Part shown: positions 3,492 through 48,687 of the stretch, in pieces
Layout: each line of letters opens with the position of its first letter
How positions within the stretch are numbered: the first letter of the stretch is position 1
From: Actinomycetes bacterium
Lineage (GTDB): Bacteria; Actinomycetota; Actinomycetes; Mycobacteriales; Mycobacteriaceae
Direction of reading: 5' to 3'
Assembly: GCA_029780675.1 (NCBI GenBank)
Contig: JAKOYE010000042.1
Location: forward strand, 1 to 48,868
DNA: 48,868 nt
Position numbers and translations under genes: made by a program
Notes under the pieces: generated by a model
What the model saw: only the letters and a program-made list of their open reading frames with translations
What the model was told of the DNA's origin: nothing
Database searches by the model: none

Positions 3492-3881
3492 ATGCTCATC
3501 GTCGCGCTGACCATCGCCGGCCTCGCCGCTCTCCTGCACGTCTACATCTTCGTGCTGGAGTCGCTCACCTGGACCTCGCCGCGGACCCGCGCGGTCTTCG
3601 GCACCACCGCCGACGAAGCCGAAACCACCAAGCCGCTGGCCTTCAACCAGGGCTTCTACAACCTGTTCCTGGCGGTCGTCACCGCCGCCGGAATAGTGGC
3701 ATTCCTCATGGGCCACAAGGGAGTTGGCGCCGCTCTGGTGTTCGCCGGGGTGGGGTCGATGCTGGCCGCCGCGGCGGTGCTGCTGGCGTCCTCCCCGGAC
3801 AAGTCGCGTGCCGCGCTCACGCAGGGCGCCCTGCCGTTGGTCGGCGTCGTGCTACTCGGAATCGCCCTGACGACAACCTGA
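3492..3881 (+). CDS. DUF1304-family integral membrane protein
   Basis: 129 residues with four predicted membrane helices (about 3-24, 53-73, 76-100 and 106-127) and little outside the membrane. The N-terminal pattern LLHVYIFVLES..W and the central AFNQGFYNLFLA are typical of DUF1304 proteins, whose function is unknown. The start at 3492 follows an AAAGGCAG ribosome site. It lies 16 bases after ruvB and converges with gabT, with only 12 bases between the two stop codons, so no separate terminator region exists. Confidence 0.85.
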   Translation: MLIVALTIAGLAALLHVYIFVLESLTWTSPRTRAVFGTTADEAETTKPLAFNQGFYNLFLAVVTAAGIVAFLMGHKGVGAALVFAGVGSMLAAAAVLLASSPDKSRAALTQGALPLVGVVLLGIALTTT

Positions 3882-3893
3882 CCGCGGCTCGGC

Positions 3894-5249
3894 CTACCGC
3901 AGCGAGGCGAGCACCTCGGCGAGGACGTCGAGACCCTCGTGCAGAAGCTCGTCGCTGATCGTCAGCGGGGGCAGGAACCGCAGGATATTGCCGAAGGTGC
4001 CGCAGCTGAGCACCAGCACGCCCTGGGCGTGGGTCCCGGCGCACAGTGCCTTGGTCAGCTCCGGATCCGGCTCGGCGGTGCCGGACTTCACCAGTTCCAT
4101 GGCGATCATCGCGCCGCGGCCGCGGACGTCGCCGATGCGGTCGTCGTCGGCCTGCATCCGTCCCAGTCGATCCTTCATCAACCGCTCGATCTCCTTGGCG
4201 CGGTCGAGCAGGCCGTCCATCTCGAGGGTCTTGATGGTGCCCAGCGCGGCCGCGCAGGCCACCGGGTTCCCGCCGTAGGTGCCGCCCAGACCGCTGACGT
4301 GGGGAGCGTCCATGATCTCGGCGCGACCGGTGACCGCCGACAGCGGCAGACCGTCGGCGATGCCCTTGGCCGTCACGATCAGATCGGGGTCGATACCCTC
4401 GTCCTCGCAGGCGAACATGTGTCCGGTGCGGCCGAACCCGCTCTGCACCTCATCGGCGATGAAGACCACGCCGTTGTGGGTGCACCACGACCGCAGTGCG
4501 GGTAGGAAGCCGGGGGCGGGCACGATGAACCCGCCCTCACCGAGGATCGGCTCGATGATGATCGCGGCGAGATTGGCCGCACCGATCTGCTTGTCGATCA
4601 CCGTCAGCGCACGTTCGGCGGCCAGTTCGCCGTTGGTGGCCCACTCCTTGTCGATCAGGCCGTCGCGGTAGGGGTAGGACAGCGGCGCGCGGTAGATCTC
4701 CGGGGCGAACGGACCGAACCCGCTCTTGTAGGGCATCGACTTCGCGGTCAGCGCCATGGTGAGGTTGGTGCGGCCGTGGTAGGCGTGGTCGAAGGCGACG
4801 ACCGCCGGACGCTTGGTATAGGCCCGGGCGATCTTGATGGCGTTCTCCACCGCCTCGGCGCCGGAGTTGAACAACGCGCTGCGCTTCTCGTAGGAGCCCG
4901 GGGTCAACCGGTTGAGGTGCTCGGCGACTTCGATGTAGCCCTCGTAGGGCGTCACCATGAAACAGGTGTGGGTGAACTCGCCCACCTGGTCGCGGACCGC
5001 ATCGACCACCCGCGGCGAGGAGTTGCCGATCGTGGTGACGGCGATCCCGGAACCCAGGTCGATCAGCCGGTTGCCGTCGACGTCCTCGATGATCCCGCCG
5101 AAGGCGCGTGCGCAATACACCGGCATGGTGACGCCCACCCCGTGGGAGACCGCGGAAAGCCGGCGCCGGGTCAGTTCCTGGGATTTCGGCCCGGGAAGTT
5201 CGGTGACAAGCTTTCGGCTCTGCTCGACGGTCATCACATCTGTGGTCAT
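3894..5249 (-). CDS. gabT: 4-aminobutyrate--2-oxoglutarate transaminase
   Basis: PLP-dependent class III aminotransferase that passes the amino group of GABA to 2-oxoglutarate, giving succinate semialdehyde and glutamate. 451 residues, the usual length. Visible PLP-site elements are NSGAEAVENA (128-137, phosphate loop), HAYHGRT (155-161), the cofactor-contacting Asp in IADEVQSGFGRTG (Asp266) and the Schiff-base lysine in TAKGIADG (Lys295). The ATG at 5249 has GAGGA about 7 bases upstream. It is transcribed away from yajC; the intergenic 244 bases hold both promoters. A TACGCT hexamer on the minus strand (5286-5281) is a possible -10. No succinate-semialdehyde dehydrogenase gene is adjacent. 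Confidence 0.93.
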   Translation of the reverse strand: MTTDVMTVEQSRKLVTELPGPKSQELTRRRLSAVSHGVGVTMPVYCARAFGGIIEDVDGNRLIDLGSGIAVTTIGNSSPRVVDAVRDQVGEFTHTCFMVTPYEGYIEVAEHLNRLTPGSYEKRSALFNSGAEAVENAIKIARAYTKRPAVVAFDHAYHGRTNLTMALTAKSMPYKSGFGPFAPEIYRAPLSYPYRDGLIDKEWATNGELAAERALTVIDKQIGAANLAAIIIEPILGEGGFIVPAPGFLPALRSWCTHNGVVFIADEVQSGFGRTGHMFACEDEGIDPDLIVTAKGIADGLPLSAVTGRAEIMDAPHVSGLGGTYGGNPVACAAALGTIKTLEMDGLLDRAKEIERLMKDRLGRMQADDDRIGDVRGRGAMIAMELVKSGTAEPDPELTKALCAGTHAQGVLVLSCGTFGNILRFLPPLTISDELLHEGLDVLAEVLASLR

Positions 5250-5493
5250 GGCATTCCTCGGTCCGGTGGGGCTGATCGAAAGCGTAGCCGGACCTCGCTA
5301 CCTCGCATCGGGAAACCCTGGTGTCCAGCGGTCCCGCCGGGCCCGGTGAGCAGGGGCGGACCAGGCAAGCACGTCCGCCCCGGCAACTGCATGAGGGTTC
5401 CGTTTGTGGTCAATGGCACACTGGACGGCACACTTACCTGCCGCGGGCACTCTGTTCGGCGGTCTCCGAACTACTGGAAAGACACGATCTGCC

Positions 5494-5880
5494 ATGGAAC
5501 TGCTGAGCTTCCTGCCCCTCTTCATCATCATGGGAGCCTTCCTGTTCTTCGCCTCCCGCCGGCAGCGCAAGGCCATGCAGGCCACCATCGACCTGCACGA
5601 ATCGCTGCGGGTCGGCGACCGGGTTTACACCACGTCAGGGCTGGCGGGCGATATCACCGCCATCACCGAGGACACCGTGTCGCTGGAGATCGCGCCCGGT
5701 GTGGTGACCGAATGGATGAAGCTGGCCATCCGGGAGAAGATCGACGCGGCCGACTCCTTCGAGACCGACTCCTTCGAGACCGATGATGTCGTCGAGATCA
5801 CTGAGACGTCCGCGGAGGCTTTCGAGCCCTCCGAGGCCGACGCGAAGAGGTTGGCCTCGAAACGGCTGACCGACGACTGA
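5494..5880 (+). CDS. yajC: Preprotein translocase subunit YajC
   Basis: Single-pass membrane partner of SecD-SecF in the Sec translocon. 128 residues: membrane helix at about 3-20 (LLSFLPLFIIMGAFLFF), the classic RRQRKAMQ basic turn, then the conserved LRVGDRVYTTSGLAGDITAI domain and an acidic C-terminal tail. The tail contains a direct repeat of DSFET caused by a 15-base duplication at 5752-5781. The ATG at 5494 was chosen because the membrane helix follows at once and the upstream in-frame codons are non-conserved. It opens the yajC-secD-secF cluster. Confidence 0.93.
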   Translation: MELLSFLPLFIIMGAFLFFASRRQRKAMQATIDLHESLRVGDRVYTTSGLAGDITAITEDTVSLEIAPGVVTEWMKLAIREKIDAADSFETDSFETDDVVEITETSAEAFEPSEADAKRLASKRLTDD

Positions 5881-8010: not shown

Positions 8011-9221
8011 TGACCGAGAACAGCAAAGACGTCGACGTGACCGCCGACGCCGAGTCCACCGTCTCCGCGGGGCAGCAGCTACCGCAGCACGGCTTCTTCA
8101 CGCGGCTCTACACCGGTACCGGTGCCTTTGACGTCGTGGGCAAGCGCAAGCTGTGGTACGTCATCACCGCCCTGATCGTCGCGCTCGCCGGGGCCAGCAT
8201 CGTGTTGCGCGGGTTCACCTTCGGCATCGACTTCCAGGGCGGCACCAAGGTGTCCTTCCCGGTCGCGGGCGTGAACGGCAACGCCAGCGTCACCGAGGTC
8301 GAGCAGGTTTTCACCGAGGCGATCGGCACCGCGCCGCAGTCGGTGGTCATCGTGGGCAACGGGCCCACGGCCACGGTTCAGATCCGCTCCGAGGCCCTCG
8401 ACAACGCCGAGGCCGCCGACGTGCGTGAGGCGTTGTTCGAGAAGTTCCAGCCCAAGGGTTCCGACGGCAAGCCCAGCAAGCAGGCCATCAGCGACTCCGC
8501 GGTGTCGGAGACCTGGGGCGGACAGATCACCCAGAAGGCCCTGATCGCCCTGGCCGTGTTTCTGGTGCTGGTGACCATCTACATCACCATGCGCTACGAG
8601 CGCTATATGGCTACAGCAGCCCTGCTCTCCCTGGGCTTGGACATGATCACCGTCGCCGGCATCTACTCCCTGGTGGGTTTCGAGGTCACCCCCGCCACGG
8701 TGATCGGCCTGCTCACCATCCTCGGCTTCTCCCTCTACGACACCGTCATCGTGTTCGACAAGGTGGAGGAGAACACCAAGGGCTTCGAACACACCACCCG
8801 GCGCACCTACGCCGAACAGGCGAACCTGGCGATCAACCAGACCTTCATGCGTTCGATCAACACCAGCGTCATCTCGGTGATGCCGGTCGTGGCGCTGATG
8901 GTGGTGGCGGTCTGGATTCTTGGTGTGGGCACCCTCAAGGACCTGGCCCTGGTTCAGTTGATCGGCATCATCGTCGGCACCTACTCGTCGATCTTCTTCG
9001 CCACTCCGCTGCTCGTCACGCTGCGGGAGCGCACCGAGAAGGTTCGCAACCACAATCGCAAGGTGCTCAACCGGCGTAAGCAGGCCACGAGTGACGCCGC
9101 GTCGGCATCGGCCGAACCGGTGGCGGTGGGCGCTGGGGCGTCGGCGGCGGGTACCGCGCCCGAGGCGCGCCCACTGCGGCCGCGTCGGCCTTCCGGTAAG
9201 CGCGGCACGGGCGACCAGTAG
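8007..9221 (+). CDS. secF: Protein translocase subunit SecF
   Basis: Partner of SecD in the proton-driven Sec accessory complex. 404 residues: helix 1 around 50-70, [14 protein letters not shown], a short P1 domain, and the five-helix C-terminal bundle with [23 protein letters not shown] and [18 protein letters not shown], both hallmarks of SecF. The C-terminus is a basic then Ala/Pro-rich cytoplasmic tail. The ATG overlaps the secD stop (ATGA), so translation is coupled. A second ATG follows at 8010. It overlaps the next gene by one base. Confidence 0.95.
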
Positions 9222-11694: not shown

Positions 11695-11868
11695 CTGATA
11701 CAGCTGGGGACTGGACTCTGGTCGCTCGCCGCGATGCCGTTTCGTTCCGAAGAGGTCGCTGTTCAACCGAAACAGTGGAGACACGGCGTCATCACCCCTA
11801 GTTGCGAGGGTTTCGCCCGCGAAGGCATCGAGTTCAGTATCGCGCCTCCGGCCCGTCGAGTAAAGGAC

Positions 11869-11889
11869 ATTCTGAGAAAATCTCAGAAT
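11869..11889. promoter_or_regulatory. Perfect 9-bp-arm palindrome upstream of relA
   Basis: Arms ATTCTGAGA and TCTCAGAAT separated by AAA. It lies 66 bases before the relA start and is strikingly AT-rich for this genome. The dyad could be an operator for a dimeric regulator of relA or of the small divergent gene, or a hairpin in a longer relA leader. I could not match it to a known mycobacterial operator. Confidence 0.55.
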
Positions 11890-11922
11890 TGTGCATGCTG
11901 CGGCAGGGACGGGCGGAGGCGA

Positions 11923-11928
11923 TATCCT
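11923..11928 (+). promoter_or_regulatory. Candidate -10 hexamer of relA
   Basis: TATCCT fits TANNNT and would place the transcript start near 11935, giving a leader of about 20 bases that contains the GGAGG ribosome site at 11946-11950. No convincing -35 is visible at normal spacing. Confidence 0.35.
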
Positions 11929-11955
11929 CGCAATGCGCCCGCAACGGAGGTGGAC

Positions 11956-14328
11956 ATGGCAGAGGAGACGGTCACCGGCTCGCTGCCGGTCGCCGAATCG
12001 GGTTCGGAGACTTCGCCGGTCGAGCATCGCCCAGAGCCCCAGAAGGGCTCGGACATCCCGAAGTCGACATCCAGCGCCTCTCGGCGGGTGCGGGCCCGTC
12101 TGGCCCGGCGGATGACGGCGCAGCGCGGCACCGTCAACCCGGTGCTCGATCCGCTGGTCTCGGTGCACCGCGCCGTCTACCCCAAGGCTGACCTGTCCTT
12201 GCTGCAGCGCGCCTACGAGGTCGCCGAGTCCAAGCACGAGGGTCAGTTACGCCGCTCCGGGGACCCCTACATCACCCATCCGCTGGCGGTGGCGACCATC
12301 CTCGCCGAACTCGGCATGGACACCACCACCCTGGTCGCTGCGCTGCTGCACGACACGGTGGAGGACACCGGGTACACGCTGGAGGCGCTGACCACCGAAT
12401 TCGGCGACGAGGTCGGACACCTCGTCGACGGGGTGACCAAACTCGACAAAGTGGTGTTGGGCAGCGCCGCTGAAGGCGAGACCATCCGCAAGATGATCAT
12501 CGCCATGGCCCGTGATCCCCGGGTTCTGGTGATCAAGGTGGCCGATCGGTTGCACAATATGCGCACCATGCGGTTCCTGCCGCCCGAGAAGCAGGCCCGC
12601 AAGGCGCGCGAGACGCTGGAAGTCATTGCGCCCCTTGCCCATCGACTGGGAATGGCCACCGTCAAGTGGGAGTTGGAGGACCTGTCGTTCGCGATCCTGC
12701 ACCCTAAGCGCTACGAGGAGATCGTCCGGCTCGTCGCCGATCGGGCGCCCTCCCGCGACACCTATCTGGCCAAGGTGCGTGCCGAGATCACCGCCGCACT
12801 CGGCGCTATGAAGATCGGCGCGACGGTCGAGGGCAGGCCAAAGCACTACTGGTCGATCTATCAGAAGATGATCGTCAAGGGCCGCGACTTCGACGACATC
12901 CACGACCTGGTCGGCGTCCGGATCCTCTGCGACGAGATCCGCGACTGCTACGCCGCGGTTGGCGTTGTGCACTCGCTGTGGCAGCCCATGCCGGGCCGAT
13001 TCAAGGACTACATCGCCCAGCCGAGGTTCGGGGTGTACCAGTCGCTGCACACCACCGTCGTCGGTCCGGAGGGCAAACCGCTGGAGGTGCAGATTCGCAC
13101 CCGCGATATGCACCGCACCGCCGAGTACGGGATCGCGGCACACTGGCGCTACAAGGAGTCCAAGGGGCGCAACACCGCCTCACATCCGACCTCCGCCGCC
13201 GAGATCGACGATATGGCCTGGATGCGGCAGCTGCTCGACTGGCAGCGGGAGGCCGCCGACCCGGGCGAGTTCCTCGAGTCCCTGCGTTACGACCTGGCGG
13301 TCCAGGAGATCTTCGTCTTCACCCCCAAGGGTGACGTCATCACCCTGCCGGCCGGCTCCACCCCGGTCGACTTCGCCTACGCCGTGCACACCGAGGTCGG
13401 CCACCGCTGCATCGGCGCGCGGGTGAACGGCCGCTTGGTCGCCCTGGAGCGGAAGCTCGAAAACGGGGAACTGGTGGAGGTTTTCACCTCGAAGGCGCCC
13501 AACGCCGGCCCATCCCGGGATTGGCAGAGCTTCGTGGTGTCGCCGCGGGCGAAGGCCAAGATCCGCCAGTGGTTCGCCAAGGAGCGGCGCGAGGAGGCGC
13601 TGGAGAGCGGCAAGGACGCGATCGCCCGTGAAGTTCGCCGCGGCGGGCTTCCGCTGCAACGACTCGTCAACGGCGAGGCGATGGCCGCGCTGGCCAGCGA
13701 ACTGCGCTATGCGGACGTCTCCGCGCTGTTCACCGCGGTGGGGGAGGGACACGTCTCGCCCCGACACGTCGTGCAGCGCCTTCTGGCCCAACTTGGTGGT
13801 GCCGACGGCGCCGAGGACGAACTCGCCGAACGATCCACCCCGGCCACCATGCCGGTGCGTCACCGTCGCAGCGAGGACACCGGCATCGCGGTGCCCGGCG
13901 CGCCGGGGACGCTGACCAAGCTCGCCAAGTGCTGCACACCGGTGCCGGGCGACAACATCCTGGGTTTCGTCACCCGCGGCGGCGGGGTGAGCGTGCACCG
14001 CACCGACTGCACCAACGCCGCCGATCTGCAACGGCAGTCCGAGCGCATCATCGACGTGGTGTGGGCCCCGTCCCCGACGTCGGTATTCCTGGTGGCCATC
14101 CAGGTCGAGGCACTCGATCGGCACCGGTTGCTCTCCGACGTCACCCGGGTTCTCGCCGACGAACGGGTGAACATCCTGTCGGCCTCGGTGACCACCTCCG
14201 ATGACCGGGTCGCCGTCAGCCGCTTCACCTTCGAACTCGGCGATCCGAAGCACCTCGGTCATGTGCTCAACGCGGTACGCAACGTCGAAGGCGTCTACGA
14301 CGTCTACCGGGTGACTTCCGCCGCCTGA
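11956..14328 (+). CDS. relA: Bifunctional (p)ppGpp synthetase/hydrolase RelA/SpoT homologue
   Basis: Makes and degrades the alarmone (p)ppGpp, the master switch of the stringent response. 790 residues, identical in length to M. tuberculosis Rel. Hydrolase domain with the HD motif [10 protein letters not shown] (His132, Asp133, Glu136, Asp137); synthetase domain with [10 protein letters not shown] and [25 protein letters not shown] domain ([25 protein letters not shown]); conserved-cysteine region ([11 protein letters not shown]) and a C-terminal ACT domain. The RFKD version of the synthetase motif is that of bifunctional enzymes. The ATG at 11956 has GGAGG 5 bases upstream. Its last codons and stop are echoed in the 60-base repeats just downstream. 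Confidence 0.96.
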
Positions 14329-14385
14329 CCGTCGAGTCGACGATGCCGCCGAGGGACGAGGCGGAGGAGGAGCGAGACGTCGCGT

Positions 14386-14505
14386 GATGCCGGGCGAGGA
14401 ACGAGCCTGGAGGAGGAAGGCGGCTATCGGGTTCCGCCGCCTGACGATGCCGGGCGAGGAACGAGCCCGGAGGAGGAAGGCGGCAATCAGGTTCTGCCGC
14501 CTAGT
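14386..14505 (+). repeat. Tandem 60-base repeat (two copies) downstream of relA
   Basis: Copy 1 is 14386-14445 and copy 2 is 14446-14505, differing at only a handful of positions. A degenerate third copy occupies about 14342-14385. Each unit ends in TTCYGCCGCCT, and copy 1 ends in the same 14 bases (TTCCGCCGCCTGAC) as the relA terminus at 14316-14329, including its stop codon. Each unit holds an inverted repeat: 7-bp arms at 14418-14424/14436-14442 and 8-bp arms AGGCGGCA/TGCCGCCT at 14478-14485/14495-14502, which could act as a hairpin terminator. The 20-codon open frame through the repeats shows no sign of being a gene. Confidence 0.85.
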
Positions 14506-14559
14506 CTGGCTGCCGCGTCTCCGTCCTGAGCGCCGGTCGCCCCCGGTAGGGTCATCCCC

Positions 14560-15843
14560 ATGTCGGATCGGCCGCTGATGTCAGGTTTCCCGCCTGCGGA
14601 GGAGTCCCGCGTGACCCTGTTGAACTGGCAGGACCCGCCGTTCAACCGCTGGTCGTTTCAGCACCTGCGGGAGTTGATCCCCACCCAGCGGATATCGCGC
14701 GGCTACGGCAAGCCGCGGCCGTTGCCACTGCACCCCGTCCCGCTCAATCCCAGCGACGTCGAAGTGCAGCGGTTGGAGGGCCTCGGAACCCTGGCGGATG
14801 TGCTGGGAGACACCTGGACCGATGCGGTGGTGATTCTGCACAACGGCCGGATCGTTCTGGAGGGCTACGGCAACGGTATGGCCCCCGACACCCCGCACCT
14901 GCTGATGTCGGTGACCAAGTCGGTGGTCGGCTGCATCGCCGGCATCCTCACCGAGCGTGGCGACCTGAACCCCGAGATGGTGGTCGAGTACTACGTGCCG
15001 GAGGTGGCGGGATCCGGGTACGGCGGCGCCCGGGTCCGGGACCTGCTCGACATGAGAACCGGGGTGGCGTTCAGCGAGGAGTACACCAATCCCGACGCCG
15101 AGGTCCGGGTGATGGAGCGCTACATGGGCTGGCGGCCGGGCCTGAGCCCCGGCGAGAACGGCGGGATGTACGCCTACCTGGCCACGCTGGGTTCGGCCGG
15201 TCCGCACGGCGGCACCTTCGTCTACCGCTCGGCGGACACCGACATGCTCGGTTGGGTCTGCGAACGAGCTGCGGGCACCCGGATGGCCGACCTGGTGTCG
15301 ACGTTGATCTGGCACCCGCTCGGCGCCGAGTTCAACGCCGAGATCACCTGCGACGGGGTCGGCTCGGCGATTCACGACGGCGGGATGTCGGCGACGGCGC
15401 GGGACATGGCCCGATTCGGCCAGCTGCTGCTCGAGGACGGTTTCGTCGACGGCATGCCGGTGGTGCCGAGTCGCTGGCTGGGCGCTGCCAGGGCGCTGGA
15501 CCCCGACATCCGCGGCGCGTTCGCCTCGTCGGACTCCGAACCGGTGCTCACCGGCGGCTGGTATCGCAACCAGTTCTGGTTCGTTCCGGGTGCGGTCGGG
15601 GACCTGCAACTCTGTCTTGGTATCCACGGTCAGATGGTGCTGGTCGATCGCGCCACCCGAACGGTGTCGGTGAAGATGTCGACCTGGCCGACGGCGCAGT
15701 CGGCCGCGTACCTCATCGACACCATCCGGGGGTTCGCGGCGGCGGGCCGGCACCTGGCCGGACTCAACGGTCGTGCGAACGACCGGATGGTGGGTACCGG
15801 ACCGATCGGCGTGGTGGAGGGACGCGAGCGCGGGCACGGTTAG
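14560..15843 (+). CDS. Beta-lactamase-fold serine hydrolase, 6-aminohexanoate-dimer-hydrolase (NylB)-like
   Basis: 427-residue predicted cytoplasmic hydrolase of the class C beta-lactamase/penicillin-binding fold. The catalytic tetrad SVTK gives nucleophile Ser117 and Lys120; Tyr222 in VYRSAD is the second-motif Tyr. Tyr175 lies 58 residues after the serine, the same spacing as Tyr170 to Ser112 in the nylon-dimer hydrolase NylB (from memory), suggesting an amidase or esterase of small linear amides. No signal peptide is seen. The ATG at 14560 is followed by an in-frame ATG at 14578. It converges with the ATP-grasp gene. Substrate is unknown; an amide made by the neighbouring ATP-grasp enzyme is an attractive guess. 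Confidence 0.8.
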   Translation: MSDRPLMSGFPPAEESRVTLLNWQDPPFNRWSFQHLRELIPTQRISRGYGKPRPLPLHPVPLNPSDVEVQRLEGLGTLADVLGDTWTDAVVILHNGRIVLEGYGNGMAPDTPHLLMSVTKSVVGCIAGILTERGDLNPEMVVEYYVPEVAGSGYGGARVRDLLDMRTGVAFSEEYTNPDAEVRVMERYMGWRPGLSPGENGGMYAYLATLGSAGPHGGTFVYRSADTDMLGWVCERAAGTRMADLVSTLIWHPLGAEFNAEITCDGVGSAIHDGGMSATARDMARFGQLLLEDGFVDGMPVVPSRWLGAARALDPDIRGAFASSDSEPVLTGGWYRNQFWFVPGAVGDLQLCLGIHGQMVLVDRATRTVSVKMSTWPTAQSAAYLIDTIRGFAAAGRHLAGLNGRANDRMVGTGPIGVVEGRERGHG

Positions 15844-15866
15844 CCCGGCCCCTTCCCAAACCGGGC
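15843..15866. terminator. Hairpin between two convergent genes
   Basis: GCCCGG (15843-15848) and CCGGGC (15861-15866) form a 6-bp stem with a 12-base loop in the 28-base gap between the convergent serine hydrolase and ATP-grasp genes. No T-run follows on either strand. Confidence 0.3.
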
Positions 15867-15871
15867 GGCGA

Positions 15872-17359
15872 CTACTTCACGAAGCTGATCGGCACCACGG
15901 TCGGAGCCTGCGGCAACGGCTCGCTGACGTACATCGAACGGATGCCGTTGATGTAGTTGCGGCACCGCGTGGTGAGCCCCTCATCGGTCTGCATGCGGCC
16001 CTTGGTGACCAGAATGCCCAGATCGGCGCCCTTGAACCGGTAGTCGCCCGGCCCGTACACCCGCATGTAGAAGCACTCGTCCTCGTGGGTGACGTCATGC
16101 CAGTCGTTGGTGACCCCGACGAAATTCAGGGTGCCGTCCTCGCCGAGACGGTACCGGCCGGTGGTCGGTGCGGCCAGGATCCGCTCGACGGAGTCGTTGG
16201 GTTCCTTCATGATCAGCTGGGCCCAGACGTCGACGGCGGCCAGTTCCCGCCACCGCTCGTTGATCTCGTCCACGTCGAGGCTGTAGTCGACCCCCATGAA
16301 CTCGAGCAGGTGGAACAGGAACAGCGGGATGTCGGAGTAGGCCCCCGCGGTGACGTTCGTCATCGACGAGGCGCCGGAGATGCGGGGGTTCAACTCACCC
16401 AGGTAGACCTCGTCGGAGTCGAGGTCGACCAGGACGTCGACCTCGAAGAACCCGCGGTAACCCTCATCGCGGAGCCGGTCACCGAGCCGCCGCACATGGC
16501 CGATCGCGGTGGCGCGGTGGGCCTCCGACAACGCCTCCGGGAAGAGGTCGTTACCGCACCAGCCGCCGCGGTAGGGCGTCAACTCCGGGTATCCGGTCAG
16601 GTCGGTCATGAAGGGGCCGACGACGGTGCCGTGCCGGGTGTTGACCGCCTCGACGGCGACCGCCCGGTTGTTGATCCGCTTCATGATCTTGAGCTCTTCG
16701 CCGACGATGTCCTCGCTGCACCGATCCCAGTCGGCCTCCGCGGCGATGAAGAAGGTCGTCTTTCCCGAGTCGCCGTAGGGGGTCTGAACCACCAGATCGG
16801 TACCGAGGCCGTGCCGACCGGCGAGGTCGATCAGCGTCTCGTAGCTGTCCGCCCGGCCCAGGACGTTGGGCACCGAGGGGGCGCCGGCCTGTTCACCGAG
16901 TTTGGTGGTGACGATCTTGGAGTCCAGGTGCCGGCGGAGTTCGTCCTTGGGCAGGATCAGGTTGTAGTTCAGCTCCTCGCAGATCTCCTCGGTTTCGGCG
17001 TCGAAGAAGACCATCGCCACCATCGGACGCAGTCCCGTTGCCGCGCAGCGGGATTCGATGAAGCTCTGCACCTCGGGGTCGCGCAGCAGGTAGTTGACGA
17101 TCTCCTCGCTGCTCTGGAACTCGACATAGGGCCGATTCGAGGGTGCGAACACCCGCGGATGGGCGCCGTCCCAGGAGTCGTGGTAGACGATGTACTCGAA
17201 TCCGCGCACCCATCGGTCGATGCCGAGAAGGTTGAACGCCGTCGGTCCGACGAAGAAGATCGGCTGCTCGTTGGTCCGGAAGAAGGTCCGCATCTCCGAG
17301 ATCCCGTTGAGTCCCCGGGACCCGAAAACCTTGGAAAACAAGCCCTGTCGTTCGCTCAT
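15872..17359 (-). CDS. ATP-grasp-domain enzyme of unknown substrate (biotin-carboxylase-like)
   Basis: 495 residues. ATP-grasp enzymes activate a carboxylate as acyl phosphate and join it to an amine, thiol or other nucleophile. Seen here: the Gly-rich ATP loop TPYGDSGKTTF (193-203) and the metal/ATP-binding strand YLGELNPRISGASSMTN (319-335; Glu322 and Asn324 as Mg ligands). The N-terminal 140 residues (FFVGPTAFNLLGIDRW) form a family-specific domain, and about 150 residues follow the ATP-grasp core. There is no biotin-carrier domain or carboxyltransferase nearby, so an amide ligase is more likely than a carboxylase. The ATG at 17359 has GAGGAGA upstream. It follows the permease gene on the same strand after 107 bases, probably one transcript. 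Confidence 0.8.
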   Translation of the reverse strand: MSERQGLFSKVFGSRGLNGISEMRTFFRTNEQPIFFVGPTAFNLLGIDRWVRGFEYIVYHDSWDGAHPRVFAPSNRPYVEFQSSEEIVNYLLRDPEVQSFIESRCAATGLRPMVAMVFFDAETEEICEELNYNLILPKDELRRHLDSKIVTTKLGEQAGAPSVPNVLGRADSYETLIDLAGRHGLGTDLVVQTPYGDSGKTTFFIAAEADWDRCSEDIVGEELKIMKRINNRAVAVEAVNTRHGTVVGPFMTDLTGYPELTPYRGGWCGNDLFPEALSEAHRATAIGHVRRLGDRLRDEGYRGFFEVDVLVDLDSDEVYLGELNPRISGASSMTNVTAGAYSDIPLFLFHLLEFMGVDYSLDVDEINERWRELAAVDVWAQLIMKEPNDSVERILAAPTTGRYRLGEDGTLNFVGVTNDWHDVTHEDECFYMRVYGPGDYRFKGADLGILVTKGRMQTDEGLTTRCRNYINGIRSMYVSEPLPQAPTVVPISFVK

Positions 17360-17466
17360 ACCCAGTATCTCCTCGTCGCGAATTGTGGCATGCCCGGTGT
17401 GAACATGCGGGGAAAAGTGCAGGGGAGGGCTGCGGGCGTGCGGGGCCGGCAGCGGACATCAGGTGC

Positions 17467-18993
17467 TCAGTCGACGATCACGACGGGGGTGTCCTGCCGC
17501 AACGTCTCGCCGCGGAAGAACGCGGGTTCCACCGACCGCCAGATCAGCATCAGCACCAGACCCAGCACGATCAGCCCCATTCCGAGGGTCAGCACCAGGC
17601 CGACGCCGAAAATGCTCGCGCCGCTGCCGTAATCCGGTGACGCGCTGTCGCGCAGGGTCACGATCAGCACGCCGAACAGGCCGATCCCGCCGAGCAACGG
17701 GAACAGCAGTTTGAACACCACGCTGGAGAGGTTGACGAAAAGTTCGCGCCGGAAGAACCAGATACAGCCGAACGCCGTCAGCCCGTAGTAGAAGCAGATC
17801 ATGATGCCCAGCGAGTAGATGGTGTCGGTCAGCGCGTTCTCGCTGAGGAACATCATCACCGCGTAGAAGCCGCCGGCGAAGACCCCGGCGACCACCGTCG
17901 CGTAGGACGGGGTCAGGTAGCGGGGGTGGATCGCGCCGAATCGCTGCGGCAGCGCCTTGTAGGTCGCCATCCCGAGCATGGTCCGCGAGGCCGGCAGAAA
18001 GGTGGTGATCAGGCTGGCGATGCTGGAGGCCAGCACGGCGAGGAACAGCAGGATGTGCCAGGGGTTGCCGAGCACCGGTTCGGCCAGCGCACCGAAGACG
18101 TTGTGGGCGATCTTCTCGTTGCCCAGGCCGACCCCCTCGGTTCCCGTCCCGGCGTACAGCACCGAGGCGGTCGACACGATGAGGTAGGTCAGCAGGATCG
18201 ACAGCACGGTCAGCAACGCCGCGCGGCCGGGCGTCTTATCCGAGCCCTTCGACTCCTCGTTGACCGTCAGGCAGGTATCCCACCCCCAGAACGCGAAGAT
18301 CGAACCGGACAGCCCCGCGATGAAGGCCGACAGGGTCAGTCCCGCCGGGCTGAACCAGTCCCAGCTGAAGTCGAGACCGGTGGGGGCGGTGCGGGACTTG
18401 ACGATCGCGACGACCGCGAACACCAGCAGGATCGTCAGCTGGAACCCGACCAGGATGAACTGCACCTTCTCGGTGGTGGTGATACCGCGGTAGGCCACCC
18501 AGGTGGCGATCCCCAGAAACGCCAGGCAGGTGACCACGTTGATGGTGTTGTTCTCCCACAGGCCGCCGAGGGTCTCGTTGCGGAAAATGTCGCCGAGTAG
18601 TTGGTAGAAGAATTCCACGGCGACGCCGGCCAGATTGGACAGCACGATGGCGGTGGCCAGGATGGCCGCCCACCCGCCGATCCACCCGATGTAGGGGCCG
18701 AACGCCTTGGTGGTCCAGGTGAACGACGTGCCGCAGTCCGGAACGACCTTGTTCAACTCGCGATAGGCGTAGGCGGCGAAGAACATCGGCAGGAATCCGG
18801 CCAGGATGACCACTGCGGTCTTACTGCCCGCCTGGGTGACCAGAATTCCGATCGTGGCCGACAACGTGTAGGCCGGGGCGACACAGGAGATGCCCAGCAC
18901 CACACTGCCGAACACGCCCAGTGAGTTACGGGAGAGACCCTTGTCCATCAGATCGGCCTCGGGTGCATGGTGGACTTCGTGTGTCTCTGCCAT
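17467..18993 (-). CDS. APC-superfamily amino-acid permease
   Basis: 508 residues with about 12 predicted membrane helices. The first helix region LGVFGSVVLGISCVAPAYTLSATIG and the following QAGSKTAVVILAGFLPMFFAAYAYRELN match the APC amino-acid/polyamine/organocation family; IAFWGWDTCLTVNEE-like sequence in TM6 and the late LPASRTMLGMA helix agree. The short acidic, His-containing N-terminus (MAETHEVHHAPEADL) is cytoplasmic. The ATG at 18993 with a GAGGGCGG site upstream was chosen; the longer open frame upstream is non-conserved. Substrate is unknown; location beside an ATP-grasp enzyme suggests it imports or exports that enzyme's substrate or product. Confidence 0.87.
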   Translation of the reverse strand: MAETHEVHHAPEADLMDKGLSRNSLGVFGSVVLGISCVAPAYTLSATIGILVTQAGSKTAVVILAGFLPMFFAAYAYRELNKVVPDCGTSFTWTTKAFGPYIGWIGGWAAILATAIVLSNLAGVAVEFFYQLLGDIFRNETLGGLWENNTINVVTCLAFLGIATWVAYRGITTTEKVQFILVGFQLTILLVFAVVAIVKSRTAPTGLDFSWDWFSPAGLTLSAFIAGLSGSIFAFWGWDTCLTVNEESKGSDKTPGRAALLTVLSILLTYLIVSTASVLYAGTGTEGVGLGNEKIAHNVFGALAEPVLGNPWHILLFLAVLASSIASLITTFLPASRTMLGMATYKALPQRFGAIHPRYLTPSYATVVAGVFAGGFYAVMMFLSENALTDTIYSLGIMICFYYGLTAFGCIWFFRRELFVNLSSVVFKLLFPLLGGIGLFGVLIVTLRDSASPDYGSGASIFGVGLVLTLGMGLIVLGLVLMLIWRSVEPAFFRGETLRQDTPVVIVD

Positions 18994-19136
18994 ACCGCCC
19001 TCGCCGGGATCGTGAATCACGTTAGCTTTGCGGAGTACCGTACCGCTAAGTCTGGCTTGCGGTTCGGTGTTCGCTTTCGCGTACGGAACTTCATGGGACG
19101 GCCAGAAGGACGACCCAGCGGATGGAGGGCACCGCC

Positions 19137-20063
19137 ATGACCGAGGACATCGCCATGACCGAGAGCGTCGGGTGGGCTGAGAGTGGCGTCGTCGTCGGTG
19201 CCGACGGCTCCGATCACGGCATCGCGGCGCTGCGCTGGGCTGCCGACACCGCAGTCGCCTACGGACTGCCGCTGACCGTCCTGCATGCGCGCCCCGACGC
19301 GGCGGCGGTGCCGACGTTGCTCGCCGAGCCCACCGGAACGCTCGGTGCGGCGGTGGCCGAGGCGCGAACCCGGCAGCCGGATCTGGAGATCCGCGCCCTG
19401 CAGATGCCCGACGCGCCGGTTCAGTCACTGCTGGCGGCGGGGGAGAACGCCGACGTCCTTGTGCTGGGGTCCCGCGGCCGGGAGGGTTTCCGGGGGCTGC
19501 TGCTGGGGTCGACCACCATGCACGTCGCGCCCTACGCGCAGTGTCCGGTCGTGGTGGTGCACTCCGGTCTGGAGGGCGGCACACCGTTCGAGGACGTCGA
19601 GGGCCATCCGGGGAACCCGGGCCAGGTCATCCTCGGTTATGACGGCTCGCCGGCATCCAACCGGGCGGCGGCTTTCGCGTTCCGCCACGCCGAGGCCATC
19701 GGGTGCGGGGTGGTGGCGGTGACCGTGGAGCCCGGGCGGGGTGAGCCGGTCGCCGAGCACATCGACCCCGAGAACGCCACCCCCGGATCGGACACCAGCG
19801 CATTCCACTCACCGGTGATCGTCACCGCAACATCGTTTCCGATGGTGCCGGTGACATTCATCGCCGGCAGCGGACGGCCCGCCGAGGTGCTGTTGTCCCA
19901 GGCGGTCGGCGCCGAACTGCTGGTGGTCGGCAGCCGGGGGTCCGGCGGGTTCTCCGGTCTGATCATGGGGTCGGTCACCCAGAAGGTGCTGGCCCACGCC
20001 GACTGCCCGGTGGCGGTGCTGCATCCCGGTGTCCCCGCGGCCACGGCCGCCGGGATGGACTGA
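19137..20063 (+). CDS. Universal stress protein with two ATP-binding UspA domains
   Basis: 308-residue cytoplasmic protein made of two UspA domains (about 15-145 and 160-300). Both keep the ATP-binding G-2x-G-9x-G-S/T pattern, in GSRGREGFRGLLLGSTT and GSRGSGGFSGLIMGSVT, so both should bind ATP. Tandem Usp proteins of this size are common in mycobacteria and often respond to hypoxia or stationary phase. The ATG at 19137 is preferred over the upstream ATG at 19122 because GGAGGG at 19124-19129 sits 7 bases before it. It diverges from the permease over 143 bases and converges with the cyclophilin gene. Confidence 0.9.
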   Translation: MTEDIAMTESVGWAESGVVVGADGSDHGIAALRWAADTAVAYGLPLTVLHARPDAAAVPTLLAEPTGTLGAAVAEARTRQPDLEIRALQMPDAPVQSLLAAGENADVLVLGSRGREGFRGLLLGSTTMHVAPYAQCPVVVVHSGLEGGTPFEDVEGHPGNPGQVILGYDGSPASNRAAAFAFRHAEAIGCGVVAVTVEPGRGEPVAEHIDPENATPGSDTSAFHSPVIVTATSFPMVPVTFIAGSGRPAEVLLSQAVGAELLVVGSRGSGGFSGLIMGSVTQKVLAHADCPVAVLHPGVPAATAAGMD

Positions 20064-20077
20064 CCGCCGGCTCAGTC
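20058..20077. terminator. Hairpin holding the stop codons of two convergent genes
   Basis: Arms GACTGA (20058-20063) and TCAGTC (20072-20077) with the 8-base loop CCGCCGGC. The stop codons of the stress-protein gene and of the minus-strand cyclophilin gene form the two arms. A bidirectional transcription end is possible, but no T-run is present. Confidence 0.3.
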
Positions 20078-21148
20078 GAGCCGCACCGATTCGATGACGA
20101 TGGGGGTCTGCGGCGCGCCGTCCGCCTCGCCGCCGGCCACACCGACCGACACCAGAGCGTCGACCGCGGCCAGTCCGGTCCGGTCGATGCTGCCGAACGC
20201 GGTGTAGGTCGGCGGAAGTATGGAGTCCCGGTAGACGATGAAGAACTGGCTGCCGTTGCTGTCCGGTCCGGAGTTGGCCATCGCCAGCGTCCCGCGCGGG
20301 TAGACGACGGGCTCCTTCAGCGCGGGGTCGAAGGGCCGGTACTGGTTGGTCGGGTACTCGTTGGCGAAGCGGTAGCCGGGACCGCCGGTTCCGGTGGCGG
20401 TCGGATCACCGCACTGCAGCACCGATGTGGTCGTCGAGTCGGTCAGCCGGTGGCACCGGGTGTTGTCGAAGAACCCCTGCTGGGCGAGGCTGACGAAACT
20501 GTTCACCGTGCACGGCGCCTTGGCGTTGTCGAGTTGCAGGCCGACGACCACGTCCTCGGTGGTCCCGTCGTTGAACTTCGCGGTCGCCCCGACCAGCGGC
20601 GGATCGGTCGGCACCCGCCCCGGGCGGGGCGGCCTGACCGGTTTGGCGGCCCGGGTGGGTGTCGACGGGTAGCTGCAGGTGGCGCCCAGTCCGGCCGGCG
20701 GATCGAACGGCGGCAGCGGCGCCCCCACAGTTCCGGGCGGGACACCCATGCCGCGGTACTCCGGCGATTCGCGCACCACCTTCGCCGCCCAGGAGAACAA
20801 CAGCACGCCGACCACCAGGATGAGTACGGTCGCCACCGTCAGGATGTACCCGATCACCAGGCCGGCCACGGCCATCCCGCGCCCCTCCTCGCCGGAGCGC
20901 TTGATCTGCGACAGCGACAGATGGCCGAACAGGATGGCCAGCGGGGCGAACAGGAAGGCGCACACCAGGGACGCGATCGCCATGGCGTTGGTGCGCCGCG
21001 GCGGATACGGGTACGGCGGGTACGGGGGCGGCGGATACGGGGAGGGTGCGGGGACCGGCGGCGGCCACGGCTCCTCCGGGTACGGCACCGCCGTTCCGTG
21101 CGGCGGGGTCGGCAGATCCGGGTGTTCCTGGGGCGGGGGCGCCGTCAT
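20072..21148 (-). CDS. Membrane-anchored cyclophilin-type peptidyl-prolyl isomerase with Pro-rich N-terminus
   Basis: 358 residues: Pro/Tyr-rich cytoplasmic N-terminus (1-50, PYPPPPYPPYPYPP), a DUF4190-type pair of membrane helices (about 55-80 and 93-122, with GHLSLSQIKRSGEEGRGMAVAGLVIGY between), then an extracytoplasmic cyclophilin domain from about 190. Catalytic-core signatures are present: CHRL (Arg), LQCGDP, and GSQFFIVY (Gln and Phe). It helps fold proline-containing secreted proteins, presumably. It is a paralogue of the next gene (ppiB), 15 bases away on the same strand, and is extra compared with M. tuberculosis, where ppiB follows relA directly. Confidence 0.87.
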   Translation of the reverse strand: MTAPPPQEHPDLPTPPHGTAVPYPEEPWPPPVPAPSPYPPPPYPPYPYPPRRTNAMAIASLVCAFLFAPLAILFGHLSLSQIKRSGEEGRGMAVAGLVIGYILTVATVLILVVGVLLFSWAAKVVRESPEYRGMGVPPGTVGAPLPPFDPPAGLGATCSYPSTPTRAAKPVRPPRPGRVPTDPPLVGATAKFNDGTTEDVVVGLQLDNAKAPCTVNSFVSLAQQGFFDNTRCHRLTDSTTTSVLQCGDPTATGTGGPGYRFANEYPTNQYRPFDPALKEPVVYPRGTLAMANSGPDSNGSQFFIVYRDSILPPTYTAFGSIDRTGLAAVDALVSVGVAGGEADGAPQTPIVIESVRLD

Positions 21149-21163
21149 CCGGGCTGGTCCTGG

Positions 21164-22051
21164 CTAGTCCAGGAGGATCGACTTGACCGTCACCGCGGTC
21201 GCGGGCTTGCCGTCCTGACCGCCGCCGGCGACACCACCCTTGGCGATCTTGTCCAAGGTGGCCAGACCCGTGGAGTCGATCGTCCCGAAGACGGTGTAGT
21301 TCGGGGGCAGCTTGGAGTCCTTGTAGACCAGGAAGAACTGGCTGCCGTTGGTGTCCGGTCCGGCGTTGGCCATCGCCAGCGCGCCGCGCGGGTACAGCAC
21401 CGCTTTGCCCAGGGCGGGGTCGTCCTTGGCGAACTGGTTGGTGGGGTACTCGTTGGCGAACTGGTAACCCGGGCCGCCCGCGCCCGTGCCGGCGGGGTCA
21501 CCGCACTGCAGCACACCCAGATCGGGGGCGGTGGTCAGCCGGTGGCAGACGGTGTCGTCGAAATAGCCCTTCTGGGCCAGGCTGGCGAAGTTGTTCACCG
21601 TGCACGGAGCCTCGGCGTTGTTGAGTATCAGCCCGATGTTGCCCTGGTCGGTGGACATGCTGACGCTGATGGTGGCCGGGTCCGTCGGAATCTGGCCGGA
21701 TTTGGGCGGATCCACCTTCTTGCTGGCCGGCTGCGCGGCCGGGTACTGGCAGTTGGAACCGAGGCCGGCCGGGGCCTTGAACGCCGGCAACTGGTCGGGG
21801 CCGCCCCGGGTCAGTGTGGTGGGCGTGCCCGGCCCGGCCGGGGCCGCCGACGTGGACGAGGCTTCGGCGGCGAGTTCTTCCTCGTCGTCGCCGAAGACGA
21901 AGGTGATGATCACCGCCGCGGCGGTGACCAGGGCGACCAGGGCTCCGACGACCGACACGATGCGCCGTTGCCGAGCCTTGCGCGCCCGGCTCTCCAACTG
22001 CTCCTGGAGCTTGCGCTTGGCAGCCTCGCGTCGTTCCTCGTTGGTCGGCAC
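21164..22051 (-). CDS. ppiB: Membrane-anchored cyclophilin-type peptidyl-prolyl cis-trans isomerase
   Basis: 295 residues: a basic, coiled-coil-like cytoplasmic segment (EERREAAKRKLQEQLESRARKARQRR), one membrane helix (about 29-52, IVSVVGALVALVTAAAVIITFVF), a low-complexity linker and an extracytoplasmic cyclophilin domain (about 125-295). Active-site signatures CHRL, LQCGDPAG and NGSQFFLVYKD are intact. Position and length match PpiB (Rv2582) of M. tuberculosis. The start at 22051 follows a GGAGG site (reverse of CCTCC at 22060-22064). Two conserved Cys residues flank the active site in both paralogues. Confidence 0.92.
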   Translation of the reverse strand: MPTNEERREAAKRKLQEQLESRARKARQRRIVSVVGALVALVTAAAVIITFVFGDDEEELAAEASSTSAAPAGPGTPTTLTRGGPDQLPAFKAPAGLGSNCQYPAAQPASKKVDPPKSGQIPTDPATISVSMSTDQGNIGLILNNAEAPCTVNNFASLAQKGYFDDTVCHRLTTAPDLGVLQCGDPAGTGAGGPGYQFANEYPTNQFAKDDPALGKAVLYPRGALAMANAGPDTNGSQFFLVYKDSKLPPNYTVFGTIDSTGLATLDKIAKGGVAGGGQDGKPATAVTVKSILLD

Positions 22052-48347: not shown

Positions 48348-48385
48348 ATGACCGACATGCACCGAGATGACCGACATGCAACGAG
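48348..48385 (+). repeat. 19-base tandem duplication at the start of the decarboxylase gene
   Basis: Units 48348-48366 and 48367-48385 match at 18 of 19 bases; each begins ATGACCGACATG. Because 19 is not a multiple of 3, the first ATG opens a different frame that ends at a TAA (48387-48389) after 13 codons, overlapping the true start at 48367 or 48376. Confidence 0.9.
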
Positions 48386-48687
48386 GTAACCGACGTCGTC
48401 GGCTCTCCGTTTCCGCGCTGGCCGCGGTGGCGAATCCGTCCTACACCCGGATCGACACCTGGAATCTCCTCGATGACGCCTGCCGCGAACTGGCGGAGGT
48501 TGACCGCGCCGGGTTGGACACCACGCACAAGGCCGCCCAGGTGCACCGGATGCTGGACCGCCTCGGCGCCTACGAGCGGTACTGGCTCTATCCCGGCGCG
48601 GCGAACCTCGCGGCCTTCCGCGAACACCTCGCCGACGGGGAGACCGGCCGTCTTGCCGAGCAGGTCTCCCCGAGGTGCCTCACGTAA
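48367..48687 (+). pseudogene. Orn/Lys/Arg decarboxylase-like gene, cut off after ~100 codons
   Basis: The 106-residue frame starts RRRLSVSALAAVANPSYTRIDTWNLLDDACRELAEVD...RLGAYERYWLYPGAANLAAFREHL, which I recognise as the N-terminus of the large (over 900-residue) mycobacterial PLP decarboxylase Rv2531c. Similarity stops at about LAEQVS (near 48669), after which PRCLT and a stop follow, read from what appears to be an insertion-element end. The rest of the gene is not in this window; it may lie beyond the element. The pepQ-efp-nusB-decarboxylase order agrees with M. tuberculosis. Start is ATG 48367 or ATG 48376. I infer an insertional knockout. Confidence 0.65.

Follow-up and report, generated by a model that had tools for sequence, protein, structure and literature searches.

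A conserved pairing of an ATP-grasp protein with an amide hydrolase, and its possible role in diamine breakdown

What is the function of two genes that lie tail to tail, 28 bp apart, in the interval between relA and ppiB of a mycobacterial genome? The window analysed here is the whole stretch of 48,868 nucleotides of contig JAKOYE010000042.1 (assembly GCA_029780675.1; Mycobacteriaceae). In it, a NylB-like serine hydrolase of family PF00144 (14560..15843, + strand, 427 aa), the predicted amide hydrolase of the pair, adjoins an ATP-grasp protein of family NF005096 (15872..17359, − strand, 495 aa), which is named ‘biotin carboxylase’ in the database and which we predict to be an amide ligase. A sequence-only reading of this stretch had proposed that these two, together with a neighbouring amino-acid permease, form a self-contained route for making, moving and breaking down an amino-acid conjugate or omega-amino-acid oligomer.

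The pairing extends far beyond the window. An amide hydrolase, either NylB-like or of the C45 type, lies near the NF005096 ATP-grasp gene in 97 of 99 loci and in none of the 20 controls, which were random 19.5-kb stretches drawn from five congeneric genomes only. The loci fall into two sets. Set 1 (73 loci) came from a search with close peptide patterns, and Brevibacterium and mycobacteria are heavily represented in it; it is mostly from Actinomycetota, with two metagenome-assembled genomes (MAGs) filed under Acidobacteriota and three alphaproteobacterial loci. Set 2 (26 loci) combines six of 32 plasmid records with 20 stretches taken from other genomes that exceeded the NF005096 cut-off, 19 of 27 such genomes being represented; the cut-off was passed by 16 of 61 and 15 of 396 genomes. 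By tblastn, set 1 has a NylB-like gene in 66 loci, a C45 gene in 11, both in five and neither in one (L035). Many of the probes were cut from particular set 1 loci, and those loci match by construction; the window hydrolase as sole NylB probe nevertheless found a match in 66 of 73. Set 2 has a NylB-like gene in nine loci, a C45 gene in 16 and neither in one (L127), where the contig ends ∼120 bp beyond the ATP-grasp gene. The nearest hydrolase is at most 300 bp from the ATP-grasp gene in 91 of the 99 loci. The co-occurrence that had been proposed for all three genes thus holds for the pair and fails for the permease: probes for the APC family scored at least 200 bits in 19 of 73 loci of set 1 and in none of the 26 of set 2, where other transporters are annotated.

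A fairer number than these locus counts comes from clustering at 70% identity. Tree, cluster and motif counts used 99 ATP-grasp rows, one from the window, 72 from set 1 (whose partial locus L073 was left out) and 26 from set 2, and these collapse to 16 clusters. A hydrolase is present in all 16, nine with NylB, nine with C45 and two of these with both. Since the pair occurs in several relative orientations, the pairing does not merely reflect shared synteny. A quick tree requires seven changes of hydrolase type; a single slot has been filled by amide hydrolases of two unrelated folds, one joining or replacing the other, and this is the strongest sign that the partner hydrolyses (or transfers) an amide. 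We conclude that the two genes are supported as a conserved two-gene cassette, for which an amide ligase with an amide hydrolase would be the natural reading. That part of the earlier proposal stands; a self-contained route of three genes does not, as the permease is not constant.

The hydrolase active sites are conserved in both partner types. For the window hydrolase, the best PDB match is 6-aminohexanoate-dimer hydrolase (E 3e-69). Its Ser117, Lys120, Tyr175 and Tyr222, which the sequence-only reading had named, do align with NylB Ser112, Lys115, Tyr170 and Tyr215, so that the Ser-Lys-Tyr set and the Tyr170 counterpart are all in place. The NylB-like alignment holds 83 proteins (P0001 and, after two short pieces had been dropped, 82 of the 84 found in the 73 loci). 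Positions 112, 115 and 215 are invariant in 83 of 83; 82 of the proteins keep Tyr170, 72 have an acidic residue at position 181 and 79 have Asp at position 266. The window protein has E186 at NylB Asp181, keeping the acidic residue, and D273 at NylB Asn266, a change; both NylB residues are described as mattering for hydrolysis of the 6-aminohexanoate dimer (PMC7019077). Although the cassette hydrolases share the fold and catalytic residues of NylB, they are 34–35% identical to it in structural alignments, mostly carry Asp where NylB has Asn at 266, and accompany a ligase in natural loci. Two further alignments, A1 (51 rows) and A2 (58 rows), were selected from more sequences; E173, counted among the hydrolase active-site positions, is invariant in 58 of 58. 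As to the other partner, the C45 protein of L066 scored 182 bits against NF040521 (cut-off 85), the family of C45 autoproteolytic acyltransferases/hydrolases, and at E 0.01 a sequence search found no relative of it in the PDB; one Cys is invariant in 27 of 27 C45 partners.

Is the ATP-grasp protein a carboxylase, as its database name says? It might be a real or modified one that N-carboxylates an amine or urea-like compound. The window protein (P0002) belongs to NF005096 (PRK06524), with 732 bits against a cut-off of 684 over residues 11–485; it has no Pfam match, and PF02786 was matched at E 0.01 or better by 14 of 51 ATP-grasp relatives. The predicted model has an ATP-grasp fold that is of the biotin-carboxylase type over most of the chain. 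In a fold search with this model, biotin-dependent carboxylases alone stood among the best 50 matches listed, at 12–16% identity; the absence of ATP-grasp amide ligases from those 50 is not evidence against kinship with them. Closest fold and shared name thus both point to biotin carboxylase (AccC/PC/PCC). The active site does not. The QVEH segment, which holds the carboxylase base in biotin carboxylase, is absent from 99 of 99 rows, the position after the Mg-binding E-N-R reading S/T/C-G-A/V/I/L-S instead. Neither a biotin carrier nor a carboxyltransferase is among the seven proteins scanned from 11734 to 22051, no search of the remaining genome having been made, and over those seven the earlier statement that the enzyme has no carboxylase partner holds. 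The almost constant amide-hydrolase partner also speaks against a carboxylase, which we consider very unlikely. Judged by its motif, NF005096 would not be a biotin carboxylase family, and the database name looks wrong. The same name has been carried over into plasmid annotation.

How might such a ligase and hydrolase act together? With moderate confidence, we propose that the pair makes and later breaks one amide, whose acyl group protects one amine of a diamine, most likely cadaverine. We infer the substrates, the step order and the acyl donor as follows. Lysine would be converted to cadaverine by an Orn/Lys/Arg-type decarboxylase, and the ATP-grasp enzyme would use ATP to join cadaverine to an amino acid, giving N-acyl-cadaverine. 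The free amine would be oxidized by a copper amine oxidase, another oxidase or a transaminase, and the resulting aldehyde by an aldehyde dehydrogenase (ALDH) to N-acyl-5-aminovalerate; N-acyl protection would keep the amino-aldehyde from cyclizing. Hydrolysis by the NylB-like or C45 enzyme would then release 5-aminovalerate, which a transaminase of the gamma-aminobutyrate (GABA) type would turn into glutarate semialdehyde, and ALDH would oxidize this to glutarate. Finally, succinate-glutarate CoA-transferase would form glutaryl-CoA, and glutaryl-CoA dehydrogenase would convert it to crotonyl-CoA.

This proposal has a close parallel in the Puu pathway of E. coli (PuuA-D, with counterparts in Pseudomonas and Streptomyces), which likewise acylates one amine of a diamine, oxidizes the other end, hydrolyses the amide, transaminates and oxidizes. 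In Puu the ligase is of the glutamine-synthetase type, the oxidase is a flavin enzyme and the hydrolase resembles glutamine amidotransferases, whereas the cassette has an ATP-grasp ligase candidate, a NylB or C45 hydrolase and, in part of the loci, a copper amine oxidase. Judged on its genes, the cassette lacks the Puu combination of a glutamine-synthetase-type ligase with a PuuD-type hydrolase, no search for a separate Puu set elsewhere in the genome having been made. The gamma-glutamylation logic of Puu is set out in PMC9397018, in the main text of which ‘ATP-grasp’ does not occur. Conversion of lysine to glutarate via cadaverine has been described in E. coli, where other enzymes carry it out (PMC6265302). 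Two further systems of a comparable kind, glutathionylspermidine synthetase/amidase and carnosine synthase, are absent among the sequence matches listed for the ATP-grasp protein. Both are ATP-grasp-type ligases that join an amino acid or peptide to an amine, and the former is fused to its own amidase, which differs in fold from the cassette hydrolases. In the insect Ebony/Tan shuttle, too, a ligase forms an omega-aminoacyl amide, carcinine, that a hydrolase then cleaves, although the shuttle serves transmitter recycling and not catabolism. Tan is of the C45/AAT type, and Ebony resembles a non-ribosomal peptide synthetase, unlike the ATP-grasp enzyme of the cassette. The carcinine cycle is described in published abstracts, that of PMC5555718 among them. 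No title or abstract describing an ATP-grasp/hydrolase cassette was found in the open-access library searched, among the matches listed; the logic of protection by acylation is already known, and the enzyme set is new as far as our literature search shows.

The neighbouring genes bear on which amine is protected. In set 1 we found copper amine oxidase in 19 loci, GABA-type transaminase in 12, PucR in 10, glutaryl-CoA dehydrogenase and CaiB in nine each, Orn/Lys/Arg decarboxylase in six and ALDH in 20, six of the last lying 7.6–10 kb away at 31–33% identity. Set 2 has Orn/Lys/Arg decarboxylase in five loci, carbon-nitrogen hydrolase in three, GABA-type transaminase in two and ALDH in one. At the same thresholds, ALDH was found in two of the 20 controls and the other pathway families in none; at lower scores the controls gave one GabT-, one CaiB- and one acyl-CoA-dehydrogenase-like match. 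The glutaryl-CoA dehydrogenase of L021 matches PDB 3swo (E 6e-224), and the closest NCBIfam to its CaiB is succinate-glutarate CoA-transferase. Two mycobacterial loci (L017 and L019) hold the upper and lower halves of the proposed route together within ∼17 kb: ALDH, amine oxidase, two NylB genes, ATP-grasp, transaminase, ALDH, CaiB, PucR and glutaryl-CoA dehydrogenase. The omega-amino-acid chemistry suggested earlier thus fits part of the neighbours, namely the GABA-type transaminase and the glutarate genes.

The same surroundings raise the possibility that the protected amines derive from arginine or ornithine (agmatine, putrescine or guanidinobutyrate) and that the route ends in GABA and succinate and not in glutarate. 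Plasmid locus L096, with speB, 5-guanidino-2-oxopentanoate decarboxylase, ALDH, ATP-grasp, C45, D-amino-acid dehydrogenase and racemase, suggests as much, as do GabT and carbon-nitrogen hydrolase in L066–L068 and L095. Glutaryl-CoA dehydrogenase and the glutarate-type CoA-transferase, each in nine of the 73 loci and associated with actinobacterial clusters, argue the other way; glutarate genes are also present in the window's own genome, and GABA degradation needs neither. We regard arginine- or ornithine-derived substrates as possible, if on balance doubtful. At 3873–4745 in L096, a universal stress protein (Usp) gene stands beside an amino-acid permease, an arrangement that the window shares.

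Kiloniella and rhizobial plasmids have one gene order in common, namely decarboxylase, ATP-grasp, C45. On rhizobial plasmids this trio is seen in L094 (R. leguminosarum p3), L098 and L099 (S. meliloti pSymA); in L098 a hypothetical protein (8064–8858) lies between decarboxylase and ATP-grasp, and matches to both families fall near it. In L094 the cassette is separated from nifH by ∼0.9 kb and a single hypothetical gene, and so lies close to nifHDKE. Such plasmid cassettes may serve an amine route during symbiosis. None of the terms ‘biotin carboxylase’, ‘ATP-grasp’ and ‘C45’ occurs in the main text of PMC7268258, which deals with the catabolism of arginine in S. meliloti.

Several observations weigh against protection of cadaverine as the general function. 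Most loci do not carry the pathway genes nearby: the mycobacterial branch L138–L146 and most of L127–L137 show little beyond the pair, and at the thresholds used none of the 26 loci of set 2 has copper amine oxidase, glutaryl-CoA dehydrogenase, CaiB or PucR. L035, which lacks both hydrolases, has an amidase-signature gene, ALDH and a permease. Orn/Lys/Arg decarboxylases act on any of these three amino acids, and copper amine oxidases of the type found near the cassette are often aromatic-amine enzymes. The arginine and D-amino-acid surroundings of L096 mean that the amine may differ between lineages. The NylB-like and C45 families also include acyltransferases, and the partner may therefore transfer the amide and not hydrolyse it. 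Lastly, the genome of the window (G000; 4.03 Mb, 92.8% complete) has no match to PF01179, the copper amine oxidase. In L127, L128, L130 and L131, a ∼470-codon frame recurs directly upstream of the ATP-grasp gene, as read by a crude frame caller.

What has become of the amine oxidase in the window? In L001, L002 and other relatives a region of ∼2 kb carries its gene at the position that corresponds to 17395..17467. L002 aligns to the window up to 17395 (89% identity) and again from 17467 (86%); between its permease and ligase genes lie 2.0 kb with the oxidase gene (3617–5615), for which the window has 71 bp. By this alignment, the copper amine oxidase gene has been cleanly lost from the window. 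Because it is absent from both the window and G000, either another enzyme must carry out the oxidation or the route is broken in this strain. A copper amine oxidase as a constant step, with 19 of 73 loci, 0 of 26 and none in the window's genome, has been dropped to one option among others.

The loss might mean that the window copy is a decaying remnant whose genes persist without a pathway. However, every reading frame is intact, as are the catalytic residues, identity to the L001 copies is 97% for the ATP-grasp protein and 91% for the hydrolase, and lower-pathway genes are present elsewhere in the genome: contig C146 of G000 carries ALDH and the series GabT, glutaryl-CoA dehydrogenase, ALDH, CaiB and PucR, with GabT 69%, glutaryl-CoA dehydrogenase 85% and CaiB 70% identical to the L021 genes. 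By sequence similarity, the glutarate set of transaminase, glutarate CoA-transferase and glutaryl-CoA dehydrogenase is thus found on C146. A remnant is, in our view, distinctly unlikely. Parts of a decarboxylase are found at the ends of contigs C78 and C60. Near the end of C60 (G000:C60:46428-48764, −) an Orn/Lys/Arg-type decarboxylase shows 52% identity over query residues 130–916. At the end of the window's contig there is the start of a gene of this type (48367..48687, +), whose frame stops at 48687; the tblastn match is weak (34% over 11–72, E 9.8e-4), and by eye the N-terminus resembles 9n0n, ‘Probable amino acid decarboxylase’, the best PDB relative of the L066 decarboxylase. A second GABA-type aminotransferase (3903..5231, −), 56% identical to the cluster transaminase, is a possible lower-pathway enzyme. 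Near it, at the contig start (1–714), is a fragment like a GABA-type permease, 42% identical to the GabP-like gene of L028.

The site itself bears on whether the cassette is a settled part of this genome. The window has relA at 11734–14328 and ppiB genes at 20072–22051. Between them, besides the pair, are the APC amino-acid permease (17467..18993, −, 508 aa), which starts at 18993 and lies upstream of the ATP-grasp gene at a distance of 107 bp, and a tandem Usp (19122..20063, +, 313 aa), relatives of which occur in eight of 73 loci and which would be accessory at most. All four genes are present and intact in the order first reported. The distance from relA to the nearest ppiB is 5.7 kb in the window, 3.4 kb in G016 and at most ∼1.3 kb in 12 of 13 congeneric genomes, and the two genes are presumably direct neighbours in M. 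tuberculosis. The window therefore carries an extra block, as the sequence-only reading had it. Because both relA and ppiB flank the cassette in nine other loci (L004–L009, L011, L014 and L036), we take the cassette to be stably maintained there. A 57-nt direct repeat occurs in two copies at 14386–14502, between relA and the hydrolase gene, the copies being 93% alike with a spacing of 60; among 192 loci, a 15-mer of it has exact matches only in L001 and L088, the latter being the window's own stretch. A scan for promoters and terminators gave no more signals than in shuffled sequence.

The adjoining permease would suit a role in which the pair makes and mobilizes an amide store or osmolyte and the permease moves the product, which is close to the original proposal of a conjugate that is made and moved; the loci with little beyond the two genes are also compatible with it. 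Against this, the permease is not a fixed member, set 1 repeatedly shows catabolic neighbours, and some relatives add amine oxidase, ALDH and glutarate genes. Moreover, the ligase and hydrolase genes frequently share a strand and lie no more than 300 bp apart, an arrangement suited to sequential use. A store or osmolyte is unlikely; compared with protection and later deprotection in a catabolic pathway, a make, move and store route is the less likely one.

What would the protecting group be? It may be glutamate, as in Puu, or an omega-amino acid; the latter is a candidate because the acyl pocket of NylB, with its acidic positions, suggests it, but the gene sequences by themselves do not separate the two. 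As a tentative and rather doubtful extension, the diamine route might use its own product for protection. The ATP-grasp enzyme would couple 5-aminovalerate (or GABA) to cadaverine (or putrescine), oxidation would give a second 5-aminovalerate, and the NylB-like enzyme would split the linear 5-aminovalerate dimer, a natural nylon-5 dimer, into two, one of which would re-prime the cycle. If this were so, the NylB-type nylon hydrolases would descend from a dedicated diamine-catabolic enzyme and not from a generic esterase.

The NF005096 family is carried by actinobacteria, by proteobacterial plasmids, including rhizobial ones, and by the two MAGs filed under Acidobacteriota, and in it annotation disagrees with motif and context. 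The pairing offers a concrete role for a ligase family that has had no assigned function, and a plausible natural function for the NylB-type hydrolases of nylon oligomers. It would provide an alternative to polyamine breakdown based on glutamine synthetase and, if true, add a new variant to the known ways of degrading diamines and lysine. Nylon recycling would be a further field to which it is relevant, as would amine catabolism in nitrogen-fixing symbionts, where one cassette lies near nifHDKE.

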